Source: a virus. From it: 25,413 nucleotides of DNA. This document shows positions 7,507 through 24,852 of the stretch, in pieces (positions within the stretch are counted from its first letter, which is position 1; each line of letters starts with the position of its first letter). The stretch is from positions 1 to 25,413 of IMG/VR virus record IMGVR_UViG_3300031989_000029, one strand, 5' to 3'. A program made the position numbers and the translations under genes. Under the pieces are notes generated by a model. The model did not search any database. It was not told the origin of the DNA and saw only the letters and a program-made list of their open reading frames with translations.

Positions 7507-9395
7507 GCATGAGACTCTTCACCGCTTTCGGGGAAGTGGCGTTCCGTGGAATGGACACGGTAGCTCGCGGACTTCGCCAATTCGAAGCGGTGGGGAGGCA
7601 GGTCCAAGAAAGTCTAGATCGAATCGGATCGTCAGCTGAATATGCGGGCAGGACGTTGTCGGGCAGCATCACAGCCCCGATCCTCGCAGCGGCTACGGCG
7701 GCCAGTGCTCTGTCGCTCCGGACGATTGGCCTTGTTCGTGATCTGAGGAACACGGCTCGGGCGCTGAACCTCACTGCGTCTGAGCTTCAGCGGCTCAGGC
7801 TCGGCCTTCGGGGGGTTTTGGACGAGGCTCAGGTGGATGGCTTGTTCGGAAACCTGAACAGGGGTATCAACGAATTCGTAGCGACCGGCGCTGGTCAGTT
7901 CGCGGATTTCTTTGAAAATATCGGTCGTCGGTATGGTATCACTGCCGAGCGGATGGCGAGAGCCACCCCGACGGAGCAGCTTGAGACCATGTTTCGTGCT
8001 GTTATGCGAAGCAGCCGTTCATTTGAACACTTCAGAGCTCAGCTCCAGGCTCTCGGCCCTGAATATGCTGCGATGGCTCAGGAATACTGGGACCACGGAA
8101 ACGAGATGTTTGACCGAGTTGAGGCTCGGGCTGCGGAGCATCCGGCTGCGGTCTCGGAAAATTTGATCCAGCTTTCGGAGGAGTGGGATCGTCGGTGGGG
8201 CCAAATGGCGGGCGTCGCAACCGGCTGGTCAAACCGGATCTCTGAAACCACGATCCCGGTGATGATCACTCTTTTGGATTTGTTTGAACAGCGAGGTATC
8301 CCTGTCATTGAAAAACTGATCGGCTACGTCGAGCAGATGTCCGAATGGTTCTTGTCTATGGACTCCGAGACGCAGGCGTGGACGATCTCCGTCGTTGGGC
8401 TGGTCGCCGTGGTCGGACCGCTGCTCGTGATTCTTGGTGGCCTCATAAGCGTCATCGGAATCGCAGTTGGAGCTCTTGTGAAGATTGGCAGCGGCTTCCT
8501 GAGGCTCGGGGGGGTATTCGTCGCAGCGGCCGGATACCTCAGGCCTCTTGTCGTGGCGATTGCCTCTGGGATGGGAACCATCGCCGGTCTGGTTGCGCGG
8601 GCAGTTCTGACGGTGACATCGTTGGTCCTGTCTGTCGGTTCGGTGTTCGCCAGAGCGATTCCATTCGTGGTGTCGTTCATCGCCAGATTCACACCCATCG
8701 GAGCGGCTTTCGCGGCTGGATACGCGGCTGGCCTCCTCCTCGTGGAAGCCGTGAGGAGGTTGATTGACATCGGCCTCCAAGTTGGGCCGGCGATCATTGG
8801 GGCTGGGCAATCGGTTCTGTCTTTTTTCTCCAAAATGGCGTCAGAGATCGGGTCGTTGGTCAGTGGATGGGCATCCTCTGCCATGGTGGGTGCGACTCAG
8901 ATGGCCCGGTCCATCTGGAACGCGGTCAGTGGTCTTCCGTCTCAGTTCCTGGCTCTTGGGGCGAGAGTCGGGCAGGCGATGATTGACGGGCTCTCGATTC
9001 TACCTTCTGTGGTAATGGGTATTATCAGCCACATGGCAGAAAGCGTCACGGCCCGAGTTCGGCAACTGGCATCCGACATCGGATCGACCCTCCAGCGCCT
9101 CTATGATCGTGTTGTCGGCAACTCTATCATCCCAGACATGGCGTCCGAGGTGGTGGACGAGATTGGGTCCATGGCCGATGGCTCCATTCGAGAAACGCGC
9201 CGGATGAGATCCGGCATGATCCAACAGATGCCTGAAAGACCCGACTTCAGACCCCCCGCGTCCAGTGCCAGTGGGGGGCAACCGGCTGGGGGCTCTGTGG
9301 TCTTCGATCTTCGGCACGCGATTTTTCGAGACGACAGAGACATGGTCAATCGCGCAAGGCTTTCGGGCGCGCTCCCGACAGGGGTGTTCGGATGA
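7503..9395 (+). CDS. Tape measure protein
   Basis: The 630-residue protein sets tail length and helps DNA pass into the cell. It shows the usual features: an N-terminal helical part starting FRGMDTVARGLRQFEAVGRQVQESLDRIG, long helices with few breaks, a hydrophobic centre with several membrane-like segments between about residues 285 and 425 (for example VVGLVAVVGPLLVILGG and FIARFTPIGAAFAAGYAAG), and a Pro/Gly-rich C-terminus. It follows the chaperones and precedes the hub gene. At the usual 1.5 angstrom per residue, 630 residues would suggest a tail near 95 nm (inference). It is the longest late gene in the window. No lytic peptidase motif was recognised. Confidence 0.85.
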   Translation: MSMRLFTAFGEVAFRGMDTVARGLRQFEAVGRQVQESLDRIGSSAEYAGRTLSGSITAPILAAATAASALSLRTIGLVRDLRNTARALNLTASELQRLRLGLRGVLDEAQVDGLFGNLNRGINEFVATGAGQFADFFENIGRRYGITAERMARATPTEQLETMFRAVMRSSRSFEHFRAQLQALGPEYAAMAQEYWDHGNEMFDRVEARAAEHPAAVSENLIQLSEEWDRRWGQMAGVATGWSNRISETTIPVMITLLDLFEQRGIPVIEKLIGYVEQMSEWFLSMDSETQAWTISVVGLVAVVGPLLVILGGLISVIGIAVGALVKIGSGFLRLGGVFVAAAGYLRPLVVAIASGMGTIAGLVARAVLTVTSLVLSVGSVFARAIPFVVSFIARFTPIGAAFAAGYAAGLLLVEAVRRLIDIGLQVGPAIIGAGQSVLSFFSKMASEIGSLVSGWASSAMVGATQMARSIWNAVSGLPSQFLALGARVGQAMIDGLSILPSVVMGIISHMAESVTARVRQLASDIGSTLQRLYDRVVGNSIIPDMASEVVDEIGSMADGSIRETRRMRSGMIQQMPERPDFRPPASSASGGQPAGGSVVFDLRHAIFRDDRDMVNRARLSGALPTGVFG

Positions 9396-10924
9396 CTTTG
9401 GCGCATGTAAGCCAGACCTGCACCATTGCCGGAAGAGCCTATCGAGTCCACGGATCTAGTGTTGAATATTCCCTGAATTCTGTGCCCCGAATCCAGTTCG
9501 CTGTTGATGCCGATGCGAACACCCTGGAGCCTATTCCCCGATTCGGAGAAGAAGTGGTTCTGACTCAAATCGGCGACGGGGCGCAAGTGTTTCGCGGAAC
9601 GATCGTCGATCTGGCTCCTATCCGGGGCTCAAACTTCACTCAGTATTTGGTGGGGGCTGAGGGCCTAACGGGCCTTGCGGCGTATCGTCGGTTCCTGGAC
9701 ATCGTTCCAGCCGGTTCGGCGTCTTCAGTGATTTCGGCTATCTGGAATCTCTACGGACCCCCTACCGTCAATTTCCTATATGACCCATCCACTGACGATC
9801 TGGGCCTAGGAGAGTATGCCAGCACCTACGGATCAGTCTCCGACTTTCTAAACTTTGTCACGAACTCTACGGCCCTCGCGTGGCGAGACGAGGGGAATGT
9901 GATCAGAGTGTTGGACCCGGAGTCGCAACCCCTCGGAGCCGAGATTACTCAGCGAGACTTTGCCAAAGGGTCTCTACGGGCGAACTATTCTGGTGCCAGC
10001 GTCTTTAATCTGGCGCGGACTCAGGCATGGGAGTTCACAACCGTCCAGTTCAACAACCCGATGATGCCGGAGGACGTTCGCCGGAGAGCTTGGGACACAG
10101 TTCAGGTCCTATACTGCGCGACGAGGTTCAAAGGACCTCCGACGATTGCCGGGTTGTCGTATGATCAGTGGGAGTTTGTGAATGGCCGAGTCGTTCGAGG
10201 CAGGGTGGCGGAGTCCAATACTCCGCTAAGTCAGATTGAAGTGTCGTTTGACGAGGGTGAAAAAGCCGTCACGACAAGCCTCGGCCTTCTGGCTTCTCCG
10301 GGCGAAGGGGTTATCGGATTCACTTCCAGTGTCCTCGTGGAAGGCATCTTCCGGCGTCCAGTCTGGGTGGAAGCGGGTCGCCAGGATTCCATCACTCGAT
10401 ACGGTCTCAGAGAATCTCCAGTTTTGCCTAACGGCGGGGACATGGACGTCTCGCAGGCGTTGGATCATCTGGAAAACTTCCTTAACCTTGTTTCGCATCC
10501 TCCACTGGAGGTGTCGGGGGAGTATCTTCGGACCGACATTCGTCCTGGGGAGCGTCGGCGGCTGGACCTCCCAGATCTGGGGGTGTCTGGGACGTTTGTC
10601 GTAGAGCGAGTCCGTAGAACGCATGGCGGGAACATGCTCCAGGTGGAAGCGGTGTTCCGAGAGCTGGTAGCGATCGCCGGGGGCCGAGAAGTTCGGCCCC
10701 TGTCTTCGAAGCCCGACCCTCTACCAGAGGTCCTGAAGCGGCTGGAACGCTTGGAGGGAACTAGGCTAGACGTCACCTCCCACCTCGGAACGGTCTGGCT
10801 CCCCGGAGGCGAGCAGGGGGGTCCGATTGGTTCTCTGGCCAGGTTCGAAGGGGGAGTCGGCTGGTCTGGTGAGTTTGAAGCTGAAATGATTGTCGGCAGC
10901 CTGCTGCTCAGGGAGGACTTCTAA
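9392..10924 (+). CDS. Baseplate hub / minor tail protein (gpD-like)
   Basis: The 510-residue protein follows the tape measure gene with an ATGA overlap and is the largest tail-tip protein here. Its first 120 residues (FAVDADANTLEPIPRFGEEVVLTQIGDGAQVFRGTIVDL) look like the first beta-barrel of a hub of the late control gene D type, and residues about 120-190 (DIVPAGSASSVISAIWNLYG, then GSVSDFLNFVTNSTALAWRDEGNVIRV) give the second, with the alternating pattern of YAG..V...L.....A.W. The remainder is beta-rich with PGERRRLDLPDLGVSGTFVVERVRRTHGGN before a short coiled region (LKRLERLEG). Such hubs cap the tube and carry fibres. Family assignment is moderate. Confidence 0.65.
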   Translation: MTLAHVSQTCTIAGRAYRVHGSSVEYSLNSVPRIQFAVDADANTLEPIPRFGEEVVLTQIGDGAQVFRGTIVDLAPIRGSNFTQYLVGAEGLTGLAAYRRFLDIVPAGSASSVISAIWNLYGPPTVNFLYDPSTDDLGLGEYASTYGSVSDFLNFVTNSTALAWRDEGNVIRVLDPESQPLGAEITQRDFAKGSLRANYSGASVFNLARTQAWEFTTVQFNNPMMPEDVRRRAWDTVQVLYCATRFKGPPTIAGLSYDQWEFVNGRVVRGRVAESNTPLSQIEVSFDEGEKAVTTSLGLLASPGEGVIGFTSSVLVEGIFRRPVWVEAGRQDSITRYGLRESPVLPNGGDMDVSQALDHLENFLNLVSHPPLEVSGEYLRTDIRPGERRRLDLPDLGVSGTFVVERVRRTHGGNMLQVEAVFRELVAIAGGREVRPLSSKPDPLPEVLKRLERLEGTRLDVTSHLGTVWLPGGEQGGPIGSLARFEGGVGWSGEFEAEMIVGSLLLREDF

Positions 10925-12631: not shown

Positions 12632-13182
12632 GCTGGAGAATCGTTGACCCTATTCAGCGAGCTCGTGGCAGCCGGTTCCTAGTTGCGACCTATGAGTTTC
12701 GGCGGACAACCTCATTCCGGACCATTTATCAGTTCCCTGTCTATCCGAACTTCTCTGGGTGGCCTCGTCCTTTTCCAATTTACAGCCGATGGGCTTTCCG
12801 AGCGGTGGGGGTTGCGGGGACTTCCGCACCTACCCAAGCTCAGCTTGAGTCGGCGGCTGGAAATGAGATGGTGCAGATGCGACACTGGTTCACTCGGCCT
12901 GATCCGCAAAGACCCAATGAGATTCCGACAGCTCCCCCCAGCTTGGAGTTTTTCGTCGGCTATGGGCCTCTGACAGCCTCCGTCTATGGGACGGCTCTGA
13001 CTAGAACGTTCGTGACTTTCCCGGCCTCAGAGGGAGCAGCGGCTTGGGTGAACTATGTTCCAGCTCCCCACAGAATGGCGCGAGTCAATGCTCATACCGG
13101 GCTTTCCCTGAACATTTCCTTCGCTCCCGTGGAGGTGTTCATTGACAATGCCTTCTCACTGATCAGCGTGGAACCCGGGTGA
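12628..13182 (+). CDS. Tail/fibre-region protein, function unknown
   Basis: The ATG at 12628 overlaps the fibre stop (ATGA), giving 184 residues; a longer frame from 12556 would overlap the fibre gene by 75 bases and is less likely. The protein is rich in aromatic residues and Pro (FRTIYQFPVYPNFSGWPRPFPIYSRW), with a beta-rich second half (LEFFVGYGPLTASVYGTALTRTFVTF). It is likely a fibre or baseplate component from its place between fibre genes. I do not recognise the family. Confidence 0.6.
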   Translation: MSWRIVDPIQRARGSRFLVATYEFRRTTSFRTIYQFPVYPNFSGWPRPFPIYSRWAFRAVGVAGTSAPTQAQLESAAGNEMVQMRHWFTRPDPQRPNEIPTAPPSLEFFVGYGPLTASVYGTALTRTFVTFPASEGAAAWVNYVPAPHRMARVNAHTGLSLNISFAPVEVFIDNAFSLISVEPG

Positions 13183-13877
13183 TGTCCTTAATCCTTGGTC
13201 GAATCGGATGGGACTTGGCGGGCGCAGCTTCTATGCCCCCTGCGGATCCCCACACATGGTATAATGCCCTATCTCTGACACTGGACCTCGGAGATCCGGC
13301 GCCGATCAACAACCAAACCCTTCGGATGCGGTTCTCCACGCCCCCCCTTCAAGGACCGGCTGGCGACCATGTTCGCATTCGGTTGCGAGGGTCGAATGTT
13401 GCCCTTAGTGTGACCAGGGTCAATGAGGCGTGGATCGGCAAAGTTGCCAAGGCGACTTCCGGCACACCGATGAACGACGGTGTCCGACTCACGTTCAATA
13501 ACGGAAGCGCGGAAGTTGTCATTGGAACTAACGGCGAGGAGTTCAGCGACGCCGAACCGTTTGTGTTCAACCCCGAAACTCACGACCTGATTGTCAGCCT
13601 ATTCATTCAATCAGGGACGAACTATGCTCCCGATCTGAATCCGGCACCGACCGGGGTGACTGGTATCAACGTGAGTGGAAATAGCGCGTCTTCGTCTTTG
13701 TCTCTTGGGGCTGGGACTACAGTCGCCTGGATAGTAGACTTGATTCAGGGGAATGCCGAGTATGTGCCCCCCGAAGTTCCGTATTCGCCCCCGGCGGGTG
13801 ACAATGTCACCCTCAACTTCACTGGAACGTATTCGCCCCCGGCTGGCGATAATGTCACCCTCAACTTTGATAATTGA
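13182..13877 (+). CDS. Tail protein with C-terminal YSPPAGDNVTLNF repeats
   Basis: The ATG at 13182 overlaps the previous TGA; a GTG one codon earlier (13179) is also in frame. The first 190 residues are a beta-rich domain (DHVRIRLRGSNVALSVTRVNEAWIGKVAKA and ATGVTGINVSGNSASSSLSLGAGTTVAWIVDLIQG). The last 31 residues are two tandem copies of a 16-residue unit, YSPPAGDNVTLNF plus linker, preceded by a degenerate copy starting YVPPEVP. The copies have a 48-base period and share long identical stretches of DNA, so they are recent or under recombination. Such repeats appear in phage fibre proteins and often vary in number. Target is unknown. Confidence 0.65.
   Translation: MSLILGRIGWDLAGAASMPPADPHTWYNALSLTLDLGDPAPINNQTLRMRFSTPPLQGPAGDHVRIRLRGSNVALSVTRVNEAWIGKVAKATSGTPMNDGVRLTFNNGSAEVVIGTNGEEFSDAEPFVFNPETHDLIVSLFIQSGTNYAPDLNPAPTGVTGINVSGNSASSSLSLGAGTTVAWIVDLIQGNAEYVPPEVPYSPPAGDNVTLNFTGTYSPPAGDNVTLNFDN
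13782..13877 (+). repeat. Two tandem 48-base repeats encoding a 16-residue unit
   Basis: Copies begin at 13782 and 13830. Both encode YSPPAGDNVTLNF; the first is followed by TGT and the second ends the gene with DN and a stop. Near-identical bases suggest slippage or recombination. A degenerate third unit may lie just upstream at about 13761. Confidence 0.8.
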
Positions 13878-16921: not shown

Positions 16922-17208
16922 CAGAGCATGTCCCTAGTGATCGCCAGTCCCCCCGGGAGCTGCTCCGGGGGGCAGTTTTCACACGGCGGACCCTTGTCCC
17001 TCGCCTTTTCTCGGTGATCCTCGACCCGCCTCATCACCCTCAGATCCAAACGCTTGGCGAGGAACGCTTCTGCTTCGTGAGATTGCAGCTCCCTGACACG
17101 GCGGAGCTTGACCGGCTGGCAGTTCTGATTGGTCATCGGAGGCCCGTCCGTCACCTGAGAACACCAGCTCCCCGTGACGATGAGTCGTTCACTGTAATAG
17201 AGCGTCAT
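16921..17208 (-). CDS. Small hydrophilic protein, function unknown
   Basis: The 95-residue product starts at ATG 17208, overlapping the helicase stop (ATGA). It is charged and helical in the middle (LRRVRELQSHEAEAFLAKRL, then DLRVMRRVEDHREKARDKG) and has a CENC pair near residue 78, possibly a metal site with other Cys (Cys16, Cys30). No family is recognised. Its tight coupling to the helicase and to the Lar-like gene suggests an accessory role in the DNA-handling operon. A GC hairpin with a T run on the plus strand lies inside it (16949-16979). Confidence 0.55.
   Translation of the reverse strand: MTLYYSERLIVTGSWCSQVTDGPPMTNQNCQPVKLRRVRELQSHEAEAFLAKRLDLRVMRRVEDHREKARDKGPPCENCPPEQLPGGLAITRDML
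16949..16979 (+). terminator. Possible plus-strand terminator inside a minus-strand gene
   Basis: CCCCCCGG (16949-16956) and CCGGGGGG (16965-16972) form an eight-base-pair stem with an eight-base loop, followed on the plus strand by CAGTTTT. It could stop late transcription that reads past the lysis genes. It also lies within coding sequence (CPPEQLPGG), so it may be coincidental. Confidence 0.3.
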
Positions 17209-18917
17209 TCGTCTTCCTCCAGTTTGAGAGTGTCCTTGAGAAGGTGTTCGGGAACCCAGACGTGGTCAGCGATCGTCCGCTTGGTCCGAAGGGCCTCGGC
17301 GATGACTTCGTCCAAAGAATTCGGCACGACGAGGTCGACATAGGTGCAGCGGTTCTTCTGGCCGATCCGGTGGATCCGATCTTCCGACTGCCACCGAACA
17401 GCCGCGTTGAACGTGTTGGAGTAGTAGACAGCGAGGCTCCACCATGGCATGTCCAGGCCAGTGGAGGCGGACTCGTTGGCGACAAGCCAGTCTACTTGAC
17501 TGCGCTCCGTGATCCGTTGCCGCTCTTCAGCGCTGGTGGCGCCGACATGGACCCCGACCCGATACCCGGCTTCTCTGAGGGCCTTCTCCACGAGGCGGAT
17601 CTCGGGTAGATACCGACACCAGACGATTCCGCCTCCGGGGTTTTGCTCCGAGATATTCAACAGAGCCTTGATTTTGTTTGACGGAACGGGGTGCGCGATC
17701 TTCTCGTTGTCGAAGACAAACCCCCCGAGGATCTGCTGGAGCTTTGTCATCTTGGAGATGGCGAGGGGGGCTGTGATTTCAACCCCAGACGACAGCTCTG
17801 CCGCCATTGCGCGCTTCATCTCCCGATAAATTCGCAGTTGTTCCTTGTCCCATTCCACTTGGACGATAGAATACACCTTCTCTGGGAGGTCCAGGCACTC
17901 GTCCTTTGTCACACGAAAGCTGACCCCTTCCAGCATGTCAGACAGCCGCTTCAGGTTCTGATAGCCTCTGATCCGCATAGCCCCCCTCGGGGCTCCGTAG
18001 ATCTGCTCCAGTTGGCAGAACTCTCGGTTGAAACTGGTCTGGCTCCGGTGCCCGAAGATCGTTGGCGACAAGATCTTGATCTGTGAGAACAGGTTCTCGA
18101 TACCATCAGTTATCGGCGACCCCGTCAAGATCCGGCGATAGGCGCACGACGGAGCGATCGCATGGACGAATTCGCTTCGCTTGGACTTCGCGTTTGCATA
18201 CTGGTGCGACTCGTCGACGATTAGGATGGCTCTCTTGCCGAACATTGCAACGAGATCGGCCAGTAATTCTTGGGCGCTGGCCGATGACAGGCTTTCGGTC
18301 GCGAACGCGAACACCCGGAGCCCGGCTTTGAATCTCGTGACTTCGTCCAGCCGCGTCTTGTCCCTGGCCCGCATTGACGACCGATGGGCAAACCCCCTCC
18401 ATTCCACCTCGCTGGTCATGTGTTGAGGAATCGCTTGCTCTACCCATTGCCGATGGACACCATTCGGTGCGAGGATGAACATCGTGTCCACATGGCCCTG
18501 GATAGCTAGGCTCCCTGTGACATCCACTGCCAACTTAGACTTTCCGGTTCCCATTTCCATGAAGTAGGCGAAGAACTCAGAGTTCCGGCTGATGGCGAAG
18601 GCCTTTCGCTGGTGATGGAAGGGCTGCGTCTTGAACGGGAAGGCGGAAGCCTCTGGGGGCAATTCAGAAGCCTTCTGAAGACGGACTGCTTGCCCGGCTT
18701 GCCGTGCCCCAAGGTAATCGTCAATCGCTGGCAAACCGAGCTCTGAAGCAGTCGGAAACGTCTCTAGGATGGCTTGGATGTTGGCGCCTGTGGCGTCCAC
18801 GAACAGTTTCCCATCCTTCCACCGACGCTTCCCGGGTAGCCTCCCGGAAAGATCGATGACTGCCGGGGTTGCGCGGTCAAAGATCAGAGTTGTCACACCC
18901 CGCTGGATTAGTGCCAC
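17205..18917 (-). CDS. SNF2/DEAH-like superfamily 2 helicase
   Basis: The 570-residue enzyme uses ATP to move along DNA. Domain 1 shows a Q-like PFHHQRKAF (99-107), Walker A MGTGKS (122-127), DESH as Walker B (235-238) and LTGSPI motif III (264-269). Domain 2 has VWCRYLPEIRLVEKAL, GATSAEERQ and the closing SEDRIHRIGQKNRC, the SNF2 motif VI. Phage members are thought to help replication, recombination or repair. Its start is GTG 18917, with GGAGGA upstream in the end of the polymerase gene, three bases after the polymerase stop. It probably works with the polymerase; the exact role is inferred. Confidence 0.85.
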   Translation of the reverse strand: MALIQRGVTTLIFDRATPAVIDLSGRLPGKRRWKDGKLFVDATGANIQAILETFPTASELGLPAIDDYLGARQAGQAVRLQKASELPPEASAFPFKTQPFHHQRKAFAISRNSEFFAYFMEMGTGKSKLAVDVTGSLAIQGHVDTMFILAPNGVHRQWVEQAIPQHMTSEVEWRGFAHRSSMRARDKTRLDEVTRFKAGLRVFAFATESLSSASAQELLADLVAMFGKRAILIVDESHQYANAKSKRSEFVHAIAPSCAYRRILTGSPITDGIENLFSQIKILSPTIFGHRSQTSFNREFCQLEQIYGAPRGAMRIRGYQNLKRLSDMLEGVSFRVTKDECLDLPEKVYSIVQVEWDKEQLRIYREMKRAMAAELSSGVEITAPLAISKMTKLQQILGGFVFDNEKIAHPVPSNKIKALLNISEQNPGGGIVWCRYLPEIRLVEKALREAGYRVGVHVGATSAEERQRITERSQVDWLVANESASTGLDMPWWSLAVYYSNTFNAAVRWQSEDRIHRIGQKNRCTYVDLVVPNSLDEVIAEALRTKRTIADHVWVPEHLLKDTLKLEEDE

Positions 18918-18920
18918 TTG

Positions 18921-20873
18921 TCAGTCCTCCATTCCCCAGTCAGCAAGGCTGTCCTCCGTCCAGAACTCACCCTCCTCGCCCCTCAGCATGGAATCTCCCC
19001 AGCTAGTGCCGAGCTCAACGTCACAGACAACTGGAACAGCCAGTTCTGTCGCGGAAGACATGATCTGGGCGATCTGCTCCGCTTGCCCCCTGTCGGAGAC
19101 AGAGAACCCGAGCTCGTCGTGGACCGACACGAGGGGTGTGAATCCTGCCCGATGGCAATTGATCATCGCCACTTTCGTCATATCGGCGGCCGATCCTTGG
19201 ATGACACGGTTCAGAGCCTTGTGCGTAAACCAGATCTGTCCGTTTGCCTGGCGAGGGAAATAGGCCCGTCGGCCAAGGAGTGTCTTCACATACCCCCGAC
19301 GCTTGGCGGCTGTCTGAGCAGCTTCGGCGAGGGCCTTGTCCATAGGGGCAGCGGAGTGAAACCGTTCTAGGAGCTCTTCACCTTCCGGGCCTGCGACCAT
19401 GATTTCCTTGCCCTTCCAGAACTTAGTCGTAAAGGGAAGCCCGAGGCTTGCGCAAAGTGTCCCGCCCCCCATGCCGTAAAGAATTCCGAGTTTGATCGTC
19501 TTTGCGTCTTTTCGCTTCAGCCCACAGAGCTCGGCCGTCTGAAGATAGGCGTCGGCGCGCGGGTTTTCGTTCCAGACACGATACATTACCTCGGAGCCCG
19601 GAATGTTCGCCTTGACTCCGAAATGGGTTGCCAGTCGAGGCTCTTGGGACGAGTAGTCGATGGATGCCCACTGATCACCCTCCTCCGGCTCAAACGCCGA
19701 CCGGACAAGGGGGCCGAGCTCGGGGTCTCTGGCTGGGACAACCTGGAGCGAAGGATTGGACCCCGAGAGCCTTCCCGAGACAGTTCCGCCATCGTCACCA
19801 CGCAGAGCCCTGAGCTCGCCGTGAATTCGGCCGTTCACAAGGTGGCCCATGATCATACCCTCCACAAAGGTTGACCGGGCTTTGTTATACCGACGAAGAG
19901 TGAGAACTTGCTTCGCGATGTGTCCGGCTGTGTTGTCGCTCTTGGACAAGCCCTTAAGGAACACGTTGTCCACCGACTTTTCGCGCTTCTTCGGTGTCAG
20001 CGGGAAGTCCCCCTCTGAGACTCCATGTTCCATCAGGGAGTCGATAATCGGGGTTGCGGCCCAGGGGTCGATCGTTCTGCCGCTCAGCGCTCTGAGCTTT
20101 TCGGCGGCAGTGTTCTCCAACCTGAGGAAATGTTCCCGCATGGCCTGGACGCGTTGCTCGTTGATCCTGACTCCCCGCTTCCGCATGGCATAGAGAACCG
20201 GCACGAGATCGCGCTCCACCCGTGCCACGACCTCCAAATCGCTGTCCCTGATGTCGAATCGCTGGAACAGATAGAGCCAGAGGGTCCGAGCGGCGTCGTC
20301 GCGAGCATACTCTTCTACGAACGCCGCCGGAAGTTTCCACAGTTGTTCTTTGACGTTCTTCAAGCCGAACTGTTCGGCGGCTTGGCGGAGCCTAGCCTCG
20401 CTCTTGGCGAGTCCTAGCCTGTCCCTGAGGAGGCTGTCCAACGAGTAGGAGCGTCGAGCATCATCCAACAGGGGGGCCTGAATCTGAACGTCATCCAGAT
20501 CACACTCCCACTGGAAACCGTCCCATCTCGTCCAGCCATAGTCGTAGATAATGTTCGCGCCGATAGCTGTTCTGCTCTTGTCTAGTAGCAGCGGTTGGAC
20601 GATGGGCCGAACTTGGTCCATCGGAAAATTCCCCCCACCTTCGTGACGGACGGGGAGGTACACGGACTGGAACCGGGGCTCGATCTCGTGGTTCAGTAGA
20701 TCTTTTCGAGTCAGCGACTCCACGTCTCCGTCAAACCACGCAAGGGCATAGCCGACAGGATAGCCTGAGTCGTTGAATGCCCAGCCGGGGCCGAGCGTCT
20801 TGAGGTTCGTGTCCTTGGTCTCCAGGTCGTAGCCGAACAAGGGGCCTGTGATGGGCGATGGAAGGCGGATCAT
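18921..20873 (-). CDS. polA: DNA polymerase, family A, with 3'-5' exonuclease
   Basis: The 650-residue replicative polymerase has an N-terminal proofreading domain with DLE (16-18, ExoI), NIIYD (107-111, ExoII) and YARDD (189-193, ExoIII), so all metal ligands are present. The polymerase domain shows motif A DYSSQEPR (406-413), motif B RKDAKTIKLGILYG (454-467) and motif C VHDE (584-587). There is no 5'-3' exonuclease domain, as in other phage enzymes. The residue matching E. coli Phe762 is Leu462. It starts at ATG 20873, overlapping the previous stop (ATGA), and is followed closely by the helicase. In a hypermodifying phage it must accept hmdUTP or thymine derivatives as substrates. Confidence 0.95.
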   Translation of the reverse strand: MIRLPSPITGPLFGYDLETKDTNLKTLGPGWAFNDSGYPVGYALAWFDGDVESLTRKDLLNHEIEPRFQSVYLPVRHEGGGNFPMDQVRPIVQPLLLDKSRTAIGANIIYDYGWTRWDGFQWECDLDDVQIQAPLLDDARRSYSLDSLLRDRLGLAKSEARLRQAAEQFGLKNVKEQLWKLPAAFVEEYARDDAARTLWLYLFQRFDIRDSDLEVVARVERDLVPVLYAMRKRGVRINEQRVQAMREHFLRLENTAAEKLRALSGRTIDPWAATPIIDSLMEHGVSEGDFPLTPKKREKSVDNVFLKGLSKSDNTAGHIAKQVLTLRRYNKARSTFVEGMIMGHLVNGRIHGELRALRGDDGGTVSGRLSGSNPSLQVVPARDPELGPLVRSAFEPEEGDQWASIDYSSQEPRLATHFGVKANIPGSEVMYRVWNENPRADAYLQTAELCGLKRKDAKTIKLGILYGMGGGTLCASLGLPFTTKFWKGKEIMVAGPEGEELLERFHSAAPMDKALAEAAQTAAKRRGYVKTLLGRRAYFPRQANGQIWFTHKALNRVIQGSAADMTKVAMINCHRAGFTPLVSVHDELGFSVSDRGQAEQIAQIMSSATELAVPVVCDVELGTSWGDSMLRGEEGEFWTEDSLADWGMED

Positions 20874-21217
20874 CGGATAGCTTTCGACGCGCTGATCTTC
20901 ATGTCGCCCTCCGCGACGCGGCGCCGATGCTCGGCTCTGATCAGAAGAAGGTAGCCGATCAGGTCGTCCAGGTCGTCACCAATGTCTCCATCGTTGGATT
21001 CCTGGGCGGCGAAGATGTCGTATCCCTGGCGGGCGGTGATGGACTCGATGCGATCCCACTTGCGGCACATCATCATGAACGCGCCGACTCCGCCCCGCTT
21101 CTGCCACGACCCCTCATAGTGCCGCTCCTTTTCCATGAGTGTTTCCACGATATTCTTGGCCACTTCTGAAAGGAAGCCAAGCCACGGGAACCGGGTGATG
21201 AGTTCTTCGTTGTCCAT
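20870..21217 (-). CDS. MazG/Nmad-like small protein (nucleotide modification associated)
   Basis: The 115-residue protein has a helical fold with ETLMEKERHYEGSWQKRGGVGAFMMMCRKWDRIE (25-58) and DDLDDLIGYLLLIRAEHRRR (81-100). The second part resembles the EExxD helix of MazG-type nucleotide pyrophosphohydrolases, and the whole is like phage Nmad/DUF1599-type proteins often found near genes for modified nucleotides. It may cleave or sense dNTPs to shift the pool. It lies between the HD nucleotidase and the polymerase, overlapping the latter. Metal-binding acids cannot be assigned with certainty, so function is tentative. Confidence 0.6.
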   Translation of the reverse strand: MDNEELITRFPWLGFLSEVAKNIVETLMEKERHYEGSWQKRGGVGAFMMMCRKWDRIESITARQGYDIFAAQESNDGDIGDDLDDLIGYLLLIRAEHRRRVAEGDMKISASKAIR

Positions 21218-21218
21218 G

Positions 21219-21749
21219 TCAGGGGTCCTTGCTCTGTAGGAAGATGGAACTGGAGAAGTGAGCGGGCATCGGAGACGTGGTGAACGACCGGGGGGCTCTG
21301 GCCAGCATCTTCTTCATCGGCTCTTCACAGCCCTTCCACCGCTCCAGATAGATCATCACTCCGAGCCTCTGAACCTGATATCGACACCAGAGAGCCGCTT
21401 CCAGAAGATCAGCCCAGCGGAGCCACCAGAGCTCCTCCTCGGTGAGTTTCCGTGTGGACAAAATGCCCATCTGATCCTCGGCGAGCTCGGTGGCGCTATC
21501 CATTGCCGATACCAGTTGAGGAAATCGACGTTTGGCCTGGAACGATAGATCGGAGGTCAGATGTTCTGGTAGATCGTGCTCCAGAGCCGCGCGCAGGAGG
21601 CTGATTGACGGGTTCGGGTGAAACTCTCCAATGATCCAGGCGACCCCCCAGCTATGCGCCGCGATTGTCTGAGGATAGGGGCCGGGCTCCTCGTGATACC
21701 GAGTCACCTGCGAGATCTGAATCACTCGGTCGTTGAACTTGTAGAACAT
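21219..21749 (-). CDS. HD-domain 5'-nucleotidase, YfbR-like
   Basis: The 176-residue protein shows the YfbR pattern: AAHSWGVAWI (His32), LEHDLPEHLTSD (His58-Asp59, Glu62) and a later RWADLLEA (Asp114), all metal ligands of HD phosphohydrolases. E. coli YfbR removes phosphate from dNMPs; related phage enzymes such as DatZ hydrolyse dATP. Here, next to a thymidylate synthase homologue and modification enzymes, it could remove dTMP or another unwanted nucleotide so that the modified base enters DNA. AGAAAGGA lies seven bases before the ATG. The C-terminal third is low-complexity Ser/Pro/Phe. Substrate is not known. Confidence 0.8.
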   Translation of the reverse strand: MFYKFNDRVIQISQVTRYHEEPGPYPQTIAAHSWGVAWIIGEFHPNPSISLLRAALEHDLPEHLTSDLSFQAKRRFPQLVSAMDSATELAEDQMGILSTRKLTEEELWWLRWADLLEAALWCRYQVQRLGVMIYLERWKGCEEPMKKMLARAPRSFTTSPMPAHFSSSIFLQSKDP

Positions 21750-21788: not shown

Positions 21789-22808
21789 CTAGGATGGAGG
21801 CAAGAGAGGTTCACCCCGTGCAATCCGAATCCTGTCGATCCACTCCCGACACGCTTTTTCCCATGCCCGATCACGGAGACAATTGAGGTTATCACACATC
21901 TCATTGACGTCTCCGCTTTTGAATGCGCGGTGGATCCGCGCCATGTGCTTCCCAACATAATCATAGAACGGTGTCAGAGGGTCCCATCGCCTTGCCGTCG
22001 GGTCTTCGATCATGCGCTGGAGGTCACTGTGAAGCTCCCAAGGTTCTGACTCTTCCAGCAAACGGGGGCCGAGTGCCATTCCGGGATCTAGACCGTAATG
22101 ATTGACCGGGTTGGCCCCGGCCATGTTCCACATCTTCTCGGCGACAGGGATTCCCGGATACAGATGCAGATCGTCGCTAACCTGCCGATAGACGCCGACA
22201 GAGACATTCAGGGCTCCGGCCATGTATTCCTGGAGATAGCTGAAATGGACGACGTTCGCCCCATAGGCCCCCCAGATCATGTCGTTGGAGCGGTTCAGGA
22301 CTGTCATATCCAATCCCCCACCGCGTATTTTGAACATGACCTGAGTATTGCAGGGCAGGTCTTTGGAGAACTGATTTTTGAGGTCCGCCCACGGGTCCCA
22401 GATGCCAACCACGGCTCGGCGGCTGCTCGGGTCATTCTTCAAGAGCTGTATGACCTCGCCGAGCTGATCGTAGCCAAAGTGGAACCTCCAGCGGTGTCCG
22501 TAGGCCCCGTTCAAAGTCTTGCCGTCGTCCGAGAACTGGTCCATGTTTTTGGCGAATTGTAGGAGGAACTCAACCTCTCCGGAGCCCGACAGCATCCAAA
22601 GGCTCTCGAAGAAGTGAAGGAACGGATTGCAGTTCCTCGTCGAATCAAAGATGACCCGCTCCAGCGGACGCTCGTAGATCGTCGTGACGGGCTCCCGGAA
22701 CCGATACACGGTTCCGTTGCGGGATTGGGCCTCTTCGTGGTCGAGCTTGAGCCGCAGGAGGGCGGTGAACAACGCATCTTCAGCGTTGCGGGCACGGATC
22801 GTGATCAT
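21789..22808 (-). CDS. Thymidylate synthase homologue, probable dUMP hydroxymethylase
   Basis: This 339-residue protein belongs to the thymidylate synthase fold. Cys153 in LPCNTQ is the nucleophile; RSND (173-176) and the following GAYGAN with Asn185 match the dUMP-binding region, though His of the usual PCH is Asn and the GAYGAN loop is one residue longer than in canonical enzymes. Phages with hydroxymethyl-dU DNA use such enzymes to add a hydroxymethyl group to dUMP. The next two genes in the operon are hmdU-specific, so dUMP hydroxymethylation is more likely than dTMP synthesis. The ATG at 22808 has GGGAGGAAG upstream and overlaps the pyrophosphorylase stop (ATGA). Longer in-frame starts overlap that gene. 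Confidence 0.85.
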   Translation of the reverse strand: MITIRARNAEDALFTALLRLKLDHEEAQSRNGTVYRFREPVTTIYERPLERVIFDSTRNCNPFLHFFESLWMLSGSGEVEFLLQFAKNMDQFSDDGKTLNGAYGHRWRFHFGYDQLGEVIQLLKNDPSSRRAVVGIWDPWADLKNQFSKDLPCNTQVMFKIRGGGLDMTVLNRSNDMIWGAYGANVVHFSYLQEYMAGALNVSVGVYRQVSDDLHLYPGIPVAEKMWNMAGANPVNHYGLDPGMALGPRLLEESEPWELHSDLQRMIEDPTARRWDPLTPFYDYVGKHMARIHRAFKSGDVNEMCDNLNCLRDRAWEKACREWIDRIRIARGEPLLPPS

Positions 22809-23656
22809 GGAAACTTCCTCCCTGTGTGTCCGCCCTGTTGGATCCGGACATATTTGAACGTCTCGCAGTTCACGTTGCTCGCGACATCGTGAAGTGTGAG
22901 CTTGCGATCTGCGACGAGGTCCTCGGGCAGGGCTTCGAGCTGAGCTCTGCCGACCCGAAGATACTCCTCTTCTGACATGCGGGCCTCGGTGTCGCGACCA
23001 AGGGTCAGGTTCATACCACGGACAGCTCCCGGTCCGAAGGGTGCCCATGTGAGGTGATCAGTAGCATCACGGAGGACGTGAGTATAGGCCAAGTCGGCCG
23101 CGATCTGTCCGGCCATGAAGTCTTTGTATCCGACCTCTTTCCTGAGTGTTTTGACGTATTCCTCTCGACTCTTGGCCACCCGTGGAAACGTCGTGCGATG
23201 GATGATGGAGCAGACATACGCCACTTTCCCCGGGAAGATGAACGGCTCCACAAGCTGGCCGGGGGGAGCTCCGACAAGATACGCCGAGTTGAAGGATCCA
23301 ACCCCCCGGTTCATCCGGCCCTGACAGATTCGGTAGACAAGCTCCAGGTTGACGGAGGTCTCGGTGATGGCCCCTGCTGACACGAGGTCGTGGAGAACGC
23401 TCGGAAGGTTAAAGAACCGGGCGACTGCCAGCGCTCGGCCCAGCTCAGCCGGATCTGCACCAGCCTCGTCCATAGGATCTCGGACCAGTTCCTTGACGAC
23501 TCGAGTGACGGCATCGTCTTCCCGGGACACGTTGCAAAACCGATGTTTCTGAATGATGGGGTCCGATGTCCATGGGGGCGTAAGACCTGCTTCGCGATTG
23601 CGGCGAGCCTCCTCTCGGTGGATGGACCAGTGTAGGAACGACCAGTTCTGGATCAT
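22805..23656 (-). CDS. Alpha-glutamyl/putrescinyl thymine pyrophosphorylase-clade enzyme
   Basis: The 283-residue product carries the hallmark segment of this clade, SDPIIQKHRFCNVSREDDAV (residues 31-50), preceded by the usual N-terminus REEARRNREAGLTPPWT. The clade has a DNA-glycosylase-like helical fold and acts on DNA containing pyrophosphorylated 5-hydroxymethyl-dU, replacing the pyrophosphate with an amino acid or amine. The rest (LARALAVARFFNLPS, then PGKVAYVCSIIHRTTFPRV and LRDATDHLTWAPFGPGAVRG) is also typical. It starts at ATG 23656 (ATGA overlap with the kinase stop) and overlaps the synthase start. What group is added cannot be told from this gene. It is a strong sign of hypermodified thymine. 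Confidence 0.88.
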   Translation of the reverse strand: MIQNWSFLHWSIHREEARRNREAGLTPPWTSDPIIQKHRFCNVSREDDAVTRVVKELVRDPMDEAGADPAELGRALAVARFFNLPSVLHDLVSAGAITETSVNLELVYRICQGRMNRGVGSFNSAYLVGAPPGQLVEPFIFPGKVAYVCSIIHRTTFPRVAKSREEYVKTLRKEVGYKDFMAGQIAADLAYTHVLRDATDHLTWAPFGPGAVRGMNLTLGRDTEARMSEEEYLRVGRAQLEALPEDLVADRKLTLHDVASNVNCETFKYVRIQQGGHTGRKFP

Positions 23657-24276
23657 GTGTTCTCCTCTATGAGCTCTCGGACGAGGGCTTCGGCCTGTTC
23701 GGAAGACCCACTCCAGTAGAGGCGGATCCCGGGCACGTTGTCCAGCAAGAGCTTCTGGTGAACGCGGCAAACAGAGTGCCACTTGTCGGTGACAGTCTCG
23801 CGAATCTTGTCGGTTGCCCCCCGGCCGGAGCGGGCTGCGACTCGTCGGACACACTCTTCCACGTCAGGCATCACGAACACCTTGTGGGTCGTGCGACCGG
23901 TCTTCTTGTAGAGGTCGGCAGCGAGATCACGATATCGAACGTGGATCCCAGAGATCGTGACGCCCTCGAAGAGGACGACTGGTCGGTCAGAGTGAGCTCC
24001 GGTAACGATTGCGTCACAAATGGCGTCATGCGCCCCTTTCCAAGAGAACTCGTCTGCCCCCCCGCAGGTTGCCCGGTATTCTCCGAGAGCGATAACCCTA
24101 CCCCCTTGCCCGACCGCCCCGACCAGCTCTCGGCGTTGGAGCCTCTGTGGGTCGGCCCGGGTCGGCTTCTCCACATGGGTGACCGCCATTACTTCGTGAG
24201 CGATGATCTCGCCCAGAACGTTCCGAACGATCGTGGACTTGCCCGACCCGAACGTTCCTCTGATGTTGATGAGCAC
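23653..24276 (-). CDS. 5-hydroxymethyl-dU DNA kinase (P-loop)
   Basis: The 207-residue P-loop enzyme has Walker A GTFGSGKST (7-15) and LGEYRATCGGADEFSW (64-79), then FEGVTISG (103-110) and a C-terminal LID-like region with VRRVAARSGRG. This pattern is that of phage kinases that phosphorylate the hydroxymethyl group of hmdU in DNA, the step before amine transfer. Being next to the pyrophosphorylase gene supports this over a deoxynucleoside kinase. The GTG at 24276 has AGGAAGGA upstream (24283-24291), a strong site, so it is the likely start. It leads the three-gene coupled cluster. Confidence 0.85.
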   Translation of the reverse strand: MLINIRGTFGSGKSTIVRNVLGEIIAHEVMAVTHVEKPTRADPQRLQRRELVGAVGQGGRVIALGEYRATCGGADEFSWKGAHDAICDAIVTGAHSDRPVVLFEGVTISGIHVRYRDLAADLYKKTGRTTHKVFVMPDVEECVRRVAARSGRGATDKIRETVTDKWHSVCRVHQKLLLDNVPGIRLYWSGSSEQAEALVRELIEENT

Positions 24277-24372: not shown

Positions 24373-24852
24373 CTAGGCCACAAGCGTCTGATTCCTACCC
24401 AAGACGAAGGTGACGAGATCGGCCTTCAGGCTGCGCCCGGCGCTCCAGTCGTGAACTTCGCCGTCCTTGACAGCGAGGACGTGGCCACACGTCCAGAGGA
24501 GGCAGGGGGGTAGTCCGCTCCAGGCTTGCGGGAACCGGATGACTTGTCTGGGGGTGACGAAGGTTTTGGACTGCTTCGCCCTTGGATACCGAAGTTTGAC
24601 AAACTCCTCAGAACTCATGTTAACCGGGCTGAGATCCAGCTCCTTGAGGGCCTCTATCATCATGTGGCGGTAGACCCCCCGATCTGGGCGGTATCCGTGA
24701 CGGAAGAGGAGGGTTCTGGAATCGTCGTAAGACAGGCTGGCCACGACGCTTAGGGCGACGACCCCGCAATCCTTGGTGTCTTCGCAATTGATGAATCTCC
24801 GACGCTCACAGATGGCTGCGAAGAGTCCGGTTGTGGGAGTAGACTTTCTCAT
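24373..24852 (-). CDS. Cysteine-peptidase-like (papain/C39 fold) phage protein
   Basis: The 159-residue protein matches a group of small phage proteins with a papain-like layout: a DCGVVALSVVASLSYDD segment (Cys29), then GVYRHMMIEALKEL, and GHVLAVKDGEVHDW with His124 and Asp135. Cys29, His124 and Asp135 would form the catalytic triad. What it cleaves or transfers is unknown; such genes are often next to nucleotide metabolism genes. AAAGGA lies seven bases before the ATG. It ends in TAG. It is separated from the next gene by 96 bases and from the upstream gene by a strong hairpin. Confidence 0.65.
   Translation of the reverse strand: MRKSTPTTGLFAAICERRRFINCEDTKDCGVVALSVVASLSYDDSRTLLFRHGYRPDRGVYRHMMIEALKELDLSPVNMSSEEFVKLRYPRAKQSKTFVTPRQVIRFPQAWSGLPPCLLWTCGHVLAVKDGEVHDWSAGRSLKADLVTFVLGRNQTLVA

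Follow-up and report, generated by a model that had tools for sequence, protein, structure and literature searches.

A candidate minimal phage cassette for thymine hypermodification that may end at 5-phosphomethyl-deoxyuridine

We analysed a stretch of viral DNA of 25,413 nucleotides (hereafter the window; positions 1 to 25,413 of the IMG/VR virus record IMGVR_UViG_3300031989_000029). It carries three consecutive genes which a preliminary description, made from the letters alone, had proposed to be the core of a phage pathway of thymine hypermodification. They encode a P-loop kinase, a helical protein of the family PF18723 (HMUDK_hel) and a homologue of thymidylate synthase (TS) (Table 1). Their minus-strand position and coordinates were confirmed, the listing of open reading frames (ORFs) contained an ATGA overlap at both junctions (kinase/middle gene and middle gene/TS-like gene), and the motifs HRFCNVSREDDAV and DLPCN, the latter with the PCN already reported for the TS homologue, were seen in the translated genes. 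Because the kinase matched its Pfam family PF18748 only weakly, we built profiles from named phages alone, with the window excluded (six kinase, six middle-protein, five TS-like and four HD-domain sequences). Each of them retrieved a single window ORF at E≤1, with E-values of 2e-26 for the kinase, 1.5e-47 for the middle protein, 7.4e-102 for the TS-like protein and 9.7e-18 for the HD protein. These family matches and the three-gene arrangement are not due to chance.

The TS-like protein is related over its full length, including the C-terminal part outside the TS domain, to the hydroxymethylases of phages M6 (gp58, 44% identity), PaMx11 (gp51, 42%) and Pam3 (Pam3_52, 40%), and it matched phrog_5131 with an E-value of 7.9e-107. 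Its similarity to the TS domain PF00303 (1.2e-21) covered residues 66–218 only, and it stayed below the cut-off of every NCBIfam TS model listed, six in all (best score 93.3 bits versus a cut-off of 174.55). By sequence it is, then, a member of the M6-type hydroxymethylases and not of the canonical thymidylate synthases. In the alignment the window protein has an N opposite a D of MilA, a cytidine enzyme; we take this residue to distinguish uracil from cytosine enzymes. The 339-aa protein is predicted from these comparisons to be an M6/PaMx11-type hydroxymethylase of deoxyuridine monophosphate (dUMP), making 5-hydroxymethyl-dUMP. With this full-length identity of 40–44% and a gene order of the M6/PaMx11 type, the attribution of the locus to phage thymine hypermodification was borne out.

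The first gene had been assigned to the DNA kinases acting on 5-hydroxymethyl-deoxyuridine (5-hmdU, or hmdU), and as a family assignment this held. Although its product scored 22 bits against PF18748, under the 27-bit cut-off, as did PaMx11 gp49 (18.1 bits), the named-phage profile and the P-loop kinase fold place it in the wider phage 5-hmdU DNA kinase family, so that neither the kinase nor the PF18723 protein fell into an unrelated family in the profile searches that had been proposed. The five best fold matches of the kinase model (pLDDT 92.6; best Foldseek E-value 2.4e-5) were all to one bacterial polynucleotide kinase (for 4mde, with DNA, Z 14.7, 150 aligned residues, rmsd 2.8), followed by tRNA, gluconate, uridine and adenylate kinases at Z 12.9 and below. 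A modelled fold nearest to a DNA-acting polynucleotide kinase fits a DNA substrate, but does not prove it. A phmmer search of the PDB with the kinase gave chance-like matches only, the best being a lactate dehydrogenase (E 0.028). Several genes at the kinase position or related to it bear the label ‘terminase small subunit’ (M6 gp054, PaMx11 gp49, Bhz59_00040 and the PHROG family phrog_800). M6 gp054 matched PF18748 at 7.7e-18 and the window kinase matched phrog_800 at 2.8e-15; for these genes the label looks mistaken.

The middle protein belongs to PF18723 (3.1e-28, 99.4 bits versus a threshold of 25, covering profile positions 7–275 of 281), the only Pfam family that it matched at E≤1; by sequence it is not a member of PF18724, the amino acid:DNA transferase (ADDT) family. 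Its AlphaFold model (mean pLDDT 94.3) was closest in VIA-align to 8z2n (Z 11.3, 219 aligned residues, rmsd 4.0, 10% identity) and 8z2m (Z 9.5), both structures of the PaMx11 glycinyltransferase of 5-phosphomethyl-deoxyuridine (5-PmdU), followed by HhH DNA glycosylases, whose Z scores were 8.8 or less. This similarity of arrangement to the PaMx11 enzyme and to base-flipping glycosylases is suggestive. Three points weigh against reading a base-flipping function from it: the best Foldseek E-value for the model was 1.8, which is not significant, the hhalign probability between PF18723 and the ADDT family was just 7.6, and helical models can attain such Z scores by chance, without kinship. For these reasons we infer base flipping by the PF18723 protein rather than assert it. 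Likewise, kinship with the ADDT fold stays suggestive because of the Foldseek value and of sequence profiles that remain unconnected, and we dropped the fold search as proof of ADDT homology on the same grounds. With phmmer the protein had no match in the PDB at E≤1, and a profile of its alignment retrieved only cytoglobin (E 1.3). The preliminary description had placed it in a thymine pyrophosphorylase clade; the family stands, since PF18723 is the former aGPT-Pplase1, but the activity is unsupported, as we found nothing for it beyond that old name and the nearest structures are the glycinyltransferase and glycosylases.

We then considered the company that PF18723 keeps elsewhere, in the best 80 of 482 confirmed PF18723 records, those nearest to an alignment led by the window protein. 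After clustering at 90% identity, 63 representatives remained, for which partners were counted within 10 kb or to the contig end. A hydroxymethylase accompanied 46 of them, a kinase 27 and a TAGT glycosyltransferase 16; 20 had neither kinase nor TAGT. Kinase and TAGT never occurred together within 10 kb (0/63; the chance of no overlap is 2e-5 if they are independent), and at least nine changes between them were needed on a quick tree with many weak forks. The TAGT was confirmed by Pfam in both loci tested, the other TAGT calls being made with a three-sequence profile. The TAGT loci share the helical protein and hydroxymethylase with the window and differ by the TAGT itself, with the kinase undetected within 10 kb. 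Given this mutual exclusion and repeated switching, the helical protein seems to be a shared hmdU-DNA factor; the family looks like a follower of the hydroxymethylase and not a part of the kinase. The idea of a private kinase domain is weakened by the same exclusion, by the lack of any fused ORF in the 80 loci (stop-to-stop frames of at most 434 aa) and by phage ViI, where the PF18723 and kinase genes lie ~49 kb apart.

Some of the surveyed loci have other neighbours. In L072 the gene immediately upstream of the helical protein and hydroxymethylase encodes a methyltransferase (9135–9974), with kinase and TAGT undetected within 10 kb; a third type of second-step chemistry is possible there. Among the 20 helical loci lacking both of the latter within this distance (e.g., L020–L023, L030, L032, L034–L036 and L044), 13 also have no detected hydroxymethylase. 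The sibling genome described below has a small phrog_624 protein, weakly similar to Pyr_excise, and in TAGT loci the ORF immediately preceding the helical gene can resemble it by eye (genes concerned: L002:1397–1891, L027:9484–9963, and others in L045 and L067); the one in L027 has no Pfam match.

The genes that tailor the final base had been described as absent from the window. They were indeed undetected in it, but this is not confined to the window, as the inspection of the rest of the genome that had been suggested could be carried out on a sibling, in which the known families were equally undetected. This IMG/VR contig of 38,494 bp (G001) is 99.7% identical to window bases 1–25,397 of 25,413 and ends in an exact 55-bp direct terminal repeat, and relatives of its two end genes adjoin each other in G004 (IMGVR_UViG_3300027268_000001, 55,028 bp); G001 is apparently a complete genome. 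Its terminase is 53% identical to that of Brevundimonas phage Polewnik, and we found no near named relative of the window phage. PF18724 had no match in the window or in G001 (E≤1), nor in G004 (E≤0.001), and TAGT and radical SAM proteins were found in none of six records (the window, G001, G004, G032, G061 and G073). Searches by tblastn with the ADDT, PLP, radical SAM, FAD, acetyltransferase and Nmad5 proteins of PaMx11, M6 and Pam3 returned nothing at E≤1 in the window, G001, G004 and G002, in which queries with the helical protein, the hydroxymethylase, the HD protein and Pam3_54 did find matches. For PLP and FAD enzymes the negative result comes from this tblastn search and from Pfam scans of single proteins.

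PF18724 occurred anywhere in the record (E≤0.001) in 13 of the 80 surveyed (8/50 and 5/30), to which a home-made ADDT profile added L056 and L083. The kinase representatives divided into 15/27 with and 12/27 without ADDT, a count that combines profile matches within ±10 kb (13/27) with whole-record Pfam matches for L038 and L052 (tree counts, 9 and 6), and ADDT without a kinase was never seen (Fisher 1.4e-7, kinship ignored). The 12 ADDT-less kinase loci are not all complete: two are fragments shorter than 7 kb (L040 and L053), and others lack a detected terminal repeat. We examined as whole records nine with kinase and no ADDT, including G001, picked for having the three-gene core; hydroxymethylase, helical protein and kinase are accordingly present in 9/9, HD protein and helicase in 8/9 each, and PolA in 6/9. 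Exact terminal repeats were found in five of them (G001, 55 bases; G004, 127; G032, 127; G061, 123; G073, 47). The enlarged home-made ADDT profile, run with filters off, gave nothing credible in the nine (best match E 0.59, to a 61-aa ORF), and a search for a common unknown tailoring gene (blastp, 1e-5) found no further gene in more than five. Among 17 named phages, hand-picked from 92 named records that match PF18723, with ViI added, 16 had PF18724 (15 over the cut-off), the exception being Neferthena, with an annotated glycosyltransferase; none of the 17 is an isolate with an ADDT-less kinase cassette.

Set against these named systems, the window carries the latter half of a PaMx11-type cluster: kinase, PF18723 protein, hydroxymethylase, HD protein, 115-aa protein, PolA and helicase. 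The PaMx11 genes run in the order ADDT (gp46), FAD oxidoreductase (gp47), acetyltransferase (gp48), kinase (gp49), PF18723 protein (gp50), hydroxymethylase (gp51), HD protein (gp52), small genes and PolA (gp55), so that the order from kinase to PolA is the same, whereas no counterpart of its ADDT (PF18724), FAD or acetyltransferase genes was detected in the window phage. From the title of a paper, we take the products of this cluster to form a Nalpha-GlyT/5-NmdU pathway. The final base of the M6 cluster (gp51–gp62) is 5-NedU. M6 shares with the window the kinase (gp54), helical protein (gp55), hydroxymethylase, HD protein (gp59) and PolA (gp62), but has its own ADDT (gp51), and its gp52, gp53 and gp56 are the counterparts of the PLP, radical SAM and Nmad5 proteins assigned in the M6-like phage SN1 (PMC9476957). 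The Pseudanabaena phage Pam3 likewise shares kinase, aGPT-Pplase1, TS, nucleotidase, ‘nucleotide modification’ protein and PolA, and differs in having its own aGPT-Pplase2 (ADDT), genes annotated as threonine dehydratase and as DNA repair photolyase, and Nmad5. In both M6 and Pam3 an extra Nmad5-type gene, not found in the window, separates the helical gene from the hydroxymethylase gene. The G001 genes upstream of the cluster match the families of Pam3 gp32, gp33 and gp34. With ADDT detected in neither window nor G001, the window phage does not group with the carriers of a complete aminoacyl-thymine pathway (M6, ViI and PaMx11). Its sister genome G004 has the kinase, helical protein (54% identity), hydroxymethylase, HD protein and PolA (67%) and likewise no detected ADDT, but a bigger genome than G001 and no PF18748 match. 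A figure legend in a 2026 paper on predicted bacterial immune systems (PMC13092281) names NMAD domains along with TS, dNMP kinase and 5-hmdU DNA kinase, so that host defence may be a further setting for relatives of these genes.

We propose tentatively, giving it somewhat less than an even chance, that the locus is a minimal thymine-hypermodification cassette that ends at 5-PmdU. In this scheme, for which we infer the substrate, the base flipping, the phosphorylation by the window kinase and the terminal base, the hydroxymethylase would convert dUMP to 5-hydroxymethyl-dUMP, kinases outside those assigned here would phosphorylate it further, and the phage polymerase would build hmdU into DNA, replacing thymidine partly or wholly, with the HD enzyme clearing competing nucleotides. 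The PF18723 protein would then bind the DNA and flip out hydroxymethyluracil, and the P-loop kinase would turn hmdU in DNA into 5-PmdU, most likely the end of the chain and probably confined to some of the sites. An ADDT would next displace the phosphate in PaMx11 and, by analogy, in M6, ViI and phiW-14; in the window phage the chain most likely stops before that step because ADDT and the later known enzymes were undetected in the apparently complete sibling. The title of a PDB entry (8z2n/8z2m) names 5-PmdU as the transferase substrate, and PMC6449724 describes a thymine route that passes through 5hmdU and uses a DNA kinase, mentioning as unpublished a preference for TG. A broader proposal, which we consider improbable, is that PF18723 is a general hmdU base-flipping platform for an interchangeable kinase or TAGT, and that the pathway of the window phage, like that of several other genomes, finishes with the kinase, leaving virion DNA with 5-PmdU.

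Several observations weigh against a cassette ending at 5-PmdU. The kinase lies under its Pfam cut-off and its tblastn search matched only two named phages, weakly; PF18748 had no match in phiW-14, SH-Ab 15599, Neferthena and G004, although the G004 kinase was detected by the custom profile, which complicates a simple scheme. Relative to plain DNA, in vitro transcription by E. coli RNA polymerase was 37% on phosphorylated hmU templates (PMC6457204); because of this reduction 5-PmdU throughout the genome would be costly, a cost that a site preference would soften. All four phages examined whose final base is known to us (M6, ViI, phiW-14 and PaMx11) carry the transferase. Finally, the Pfam scan covered 42 protein entries from G001 and the window, with one gene entered twice, but not some of the small ORFs nor the gene of the major capsid protein, and the function-unassigned genes of the operon may include a new transferase, or the helical protein may itself be one.

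This last possibility, that after formation of 5-PmdU by the kinase an ADDT-related PF18723 protein or another operon gene adds a nucleophile to give a new hypermodified thymine, is unlikely in our estimate, yet it has several points in its favour. The best structural matches of the middle protein are the PmdU glycinyltransferase entries, function-unassigned genes are present in the operon, and by eye two collinear motifs of the middle protein (GPFMA..DL and LCE..K) resemble GPWI..ADM and LCKW of ADDT. It is opposed by the Foldseek and hhalign values given above and by M6, PaMx11, Pam3 and others, which have both proteins, so that PF18723 does not stand in for ADDT there. PF18723 also occurs beside TAGT, with the kinase undetected within 10 kb, where PmdU is not expected, and, as said, the nine transferase-less records had no gene beyond the core common to all (blastp 1e-5).

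Somewhat less probable is a final base of plain 5-hmdU, or a short-lived 5-PmdU that host enzymes or free amines then use up, with the kinase and helical protein having some other function, for instance in marking or regulating DNA. Such a reading would suit the lowered transcription from hmU templates treated with 5-HMUDK (PMC6457204), and the statement in PMC6449724 that the DNA of M6, ViI and phiW-14 may also hold plain T and 5hmdU; however, all three core genes are intact with overlapping starts, and the core recurs in 9/9 kinase-bearing, ADDT-less records, albeit records chosen for having it. We regard as very unlikely a usual aminoacyl-thymine route finished by a transferase too diverged for the profiles: whole-record Pfam searches did overlook the two ADDT-like genes caught by the custom profile (L056 and L083), but the same profile, enlarged and unfiltered, found nothing credible in the nine records. 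Ordinary nucleotide metabolism by a thymidylate synthase and a dNMP kinase, with unmodified DNA, would account for the PF00303 match and for a distant likeness of the kinase to thymidylate kinases, but is hardly credible with a TS-like protein under the cut-offs of the six NCBIfam models, a TS match that stops at residue 218 where the M6 hydroxymethylase match continues, a kinase fold nearest to polynucleotide kinase and a PF18723 partner gene beside both.

Beyond the three genes initially delimited, the module takes in the HD and 115-aa genes and probably also PolA (Table 1). The HD protein scored 23.8 bits against PF12917 (3.9e-5; cut-off 25.9) and was matched by PaMx11 gp52 in tblastn (9e-11); it may trim the nucleotide pool by removing competing nucleotides. 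Because it also matches phrog_7076, a dATP triphosphohydrolase family, we considered a Z-genome (2-aminoadenine) phage, but rejected this on finding PurZ-like PF00709 in none of three records. No Pfam family matched the 115-aa protein at E≤1. For PolA, the ten closest named relatives come from Pseudomonas phages of the PaMx11 kind (37–38% identity). Upstream of the kinase, a 159-aa gene (24373–24852, minus strand) has a very weak similarity to C39 peptidases (E 0.19); the G004 ORF listing shows no such gene between the kinase and the next conserved gene. Elsewhere in the window (13179–13877, plus strand), a function-unassigned protein bears a short repeated peptide, SPPAGDNVTLNF, at its C-terminus.

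Table 1 Genes of the predicted thymine-hypermodification module and its neighbours in the window.
Feature	Position	Strand	Remarks
P-loop kinase, predicted 5-hmdU DNA kinase	23653..24276	-	207 aa, GTG start
HMUDK_hel (PF18723, older name aGPT-Pplase1) protein, predicted hmdU-DNA-binding and base-flipping	22805..23656	-	283 aa, ATG start
Predicted dUMP hydroxymethylase, M6/PaMx11 type, TS superfamily	21789..22808	-	339 aa, ATG start
HD-domain YfbR-like nucleotidase/phosphohydrolase	21219..21749	-	conserved; follows the three core genes
115-aa protein related to Pam3_54 (‘nucleotide modification’)	20870..21217	-	53% over 57 aa, 2.8e-14
Family A DNA polymerase (PolA)	18921..20873	-	PF00476, 8.9e-47
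SNF2-type helicase	17205..18917	-	PF00176, 4e-17; downstream end of the operon

To our knowledge, the anionic base 5-PmdU is otherwise known solely as an intermediate. If our reading of the locus is correct, this phage DNA would bear extra negative charge on its bases, and restriction, packaging and transcription should be affected. The swap of kinase and TAGT around a conserved helical protein suggests a role for the PF18723 family, whose names (kinase helical domain and, earlier, pyrophosphorylase) have little direct support that we could see. Gene content alone would then predict simple, glycosylated or aminoacylated thymines in uncultivated phages.

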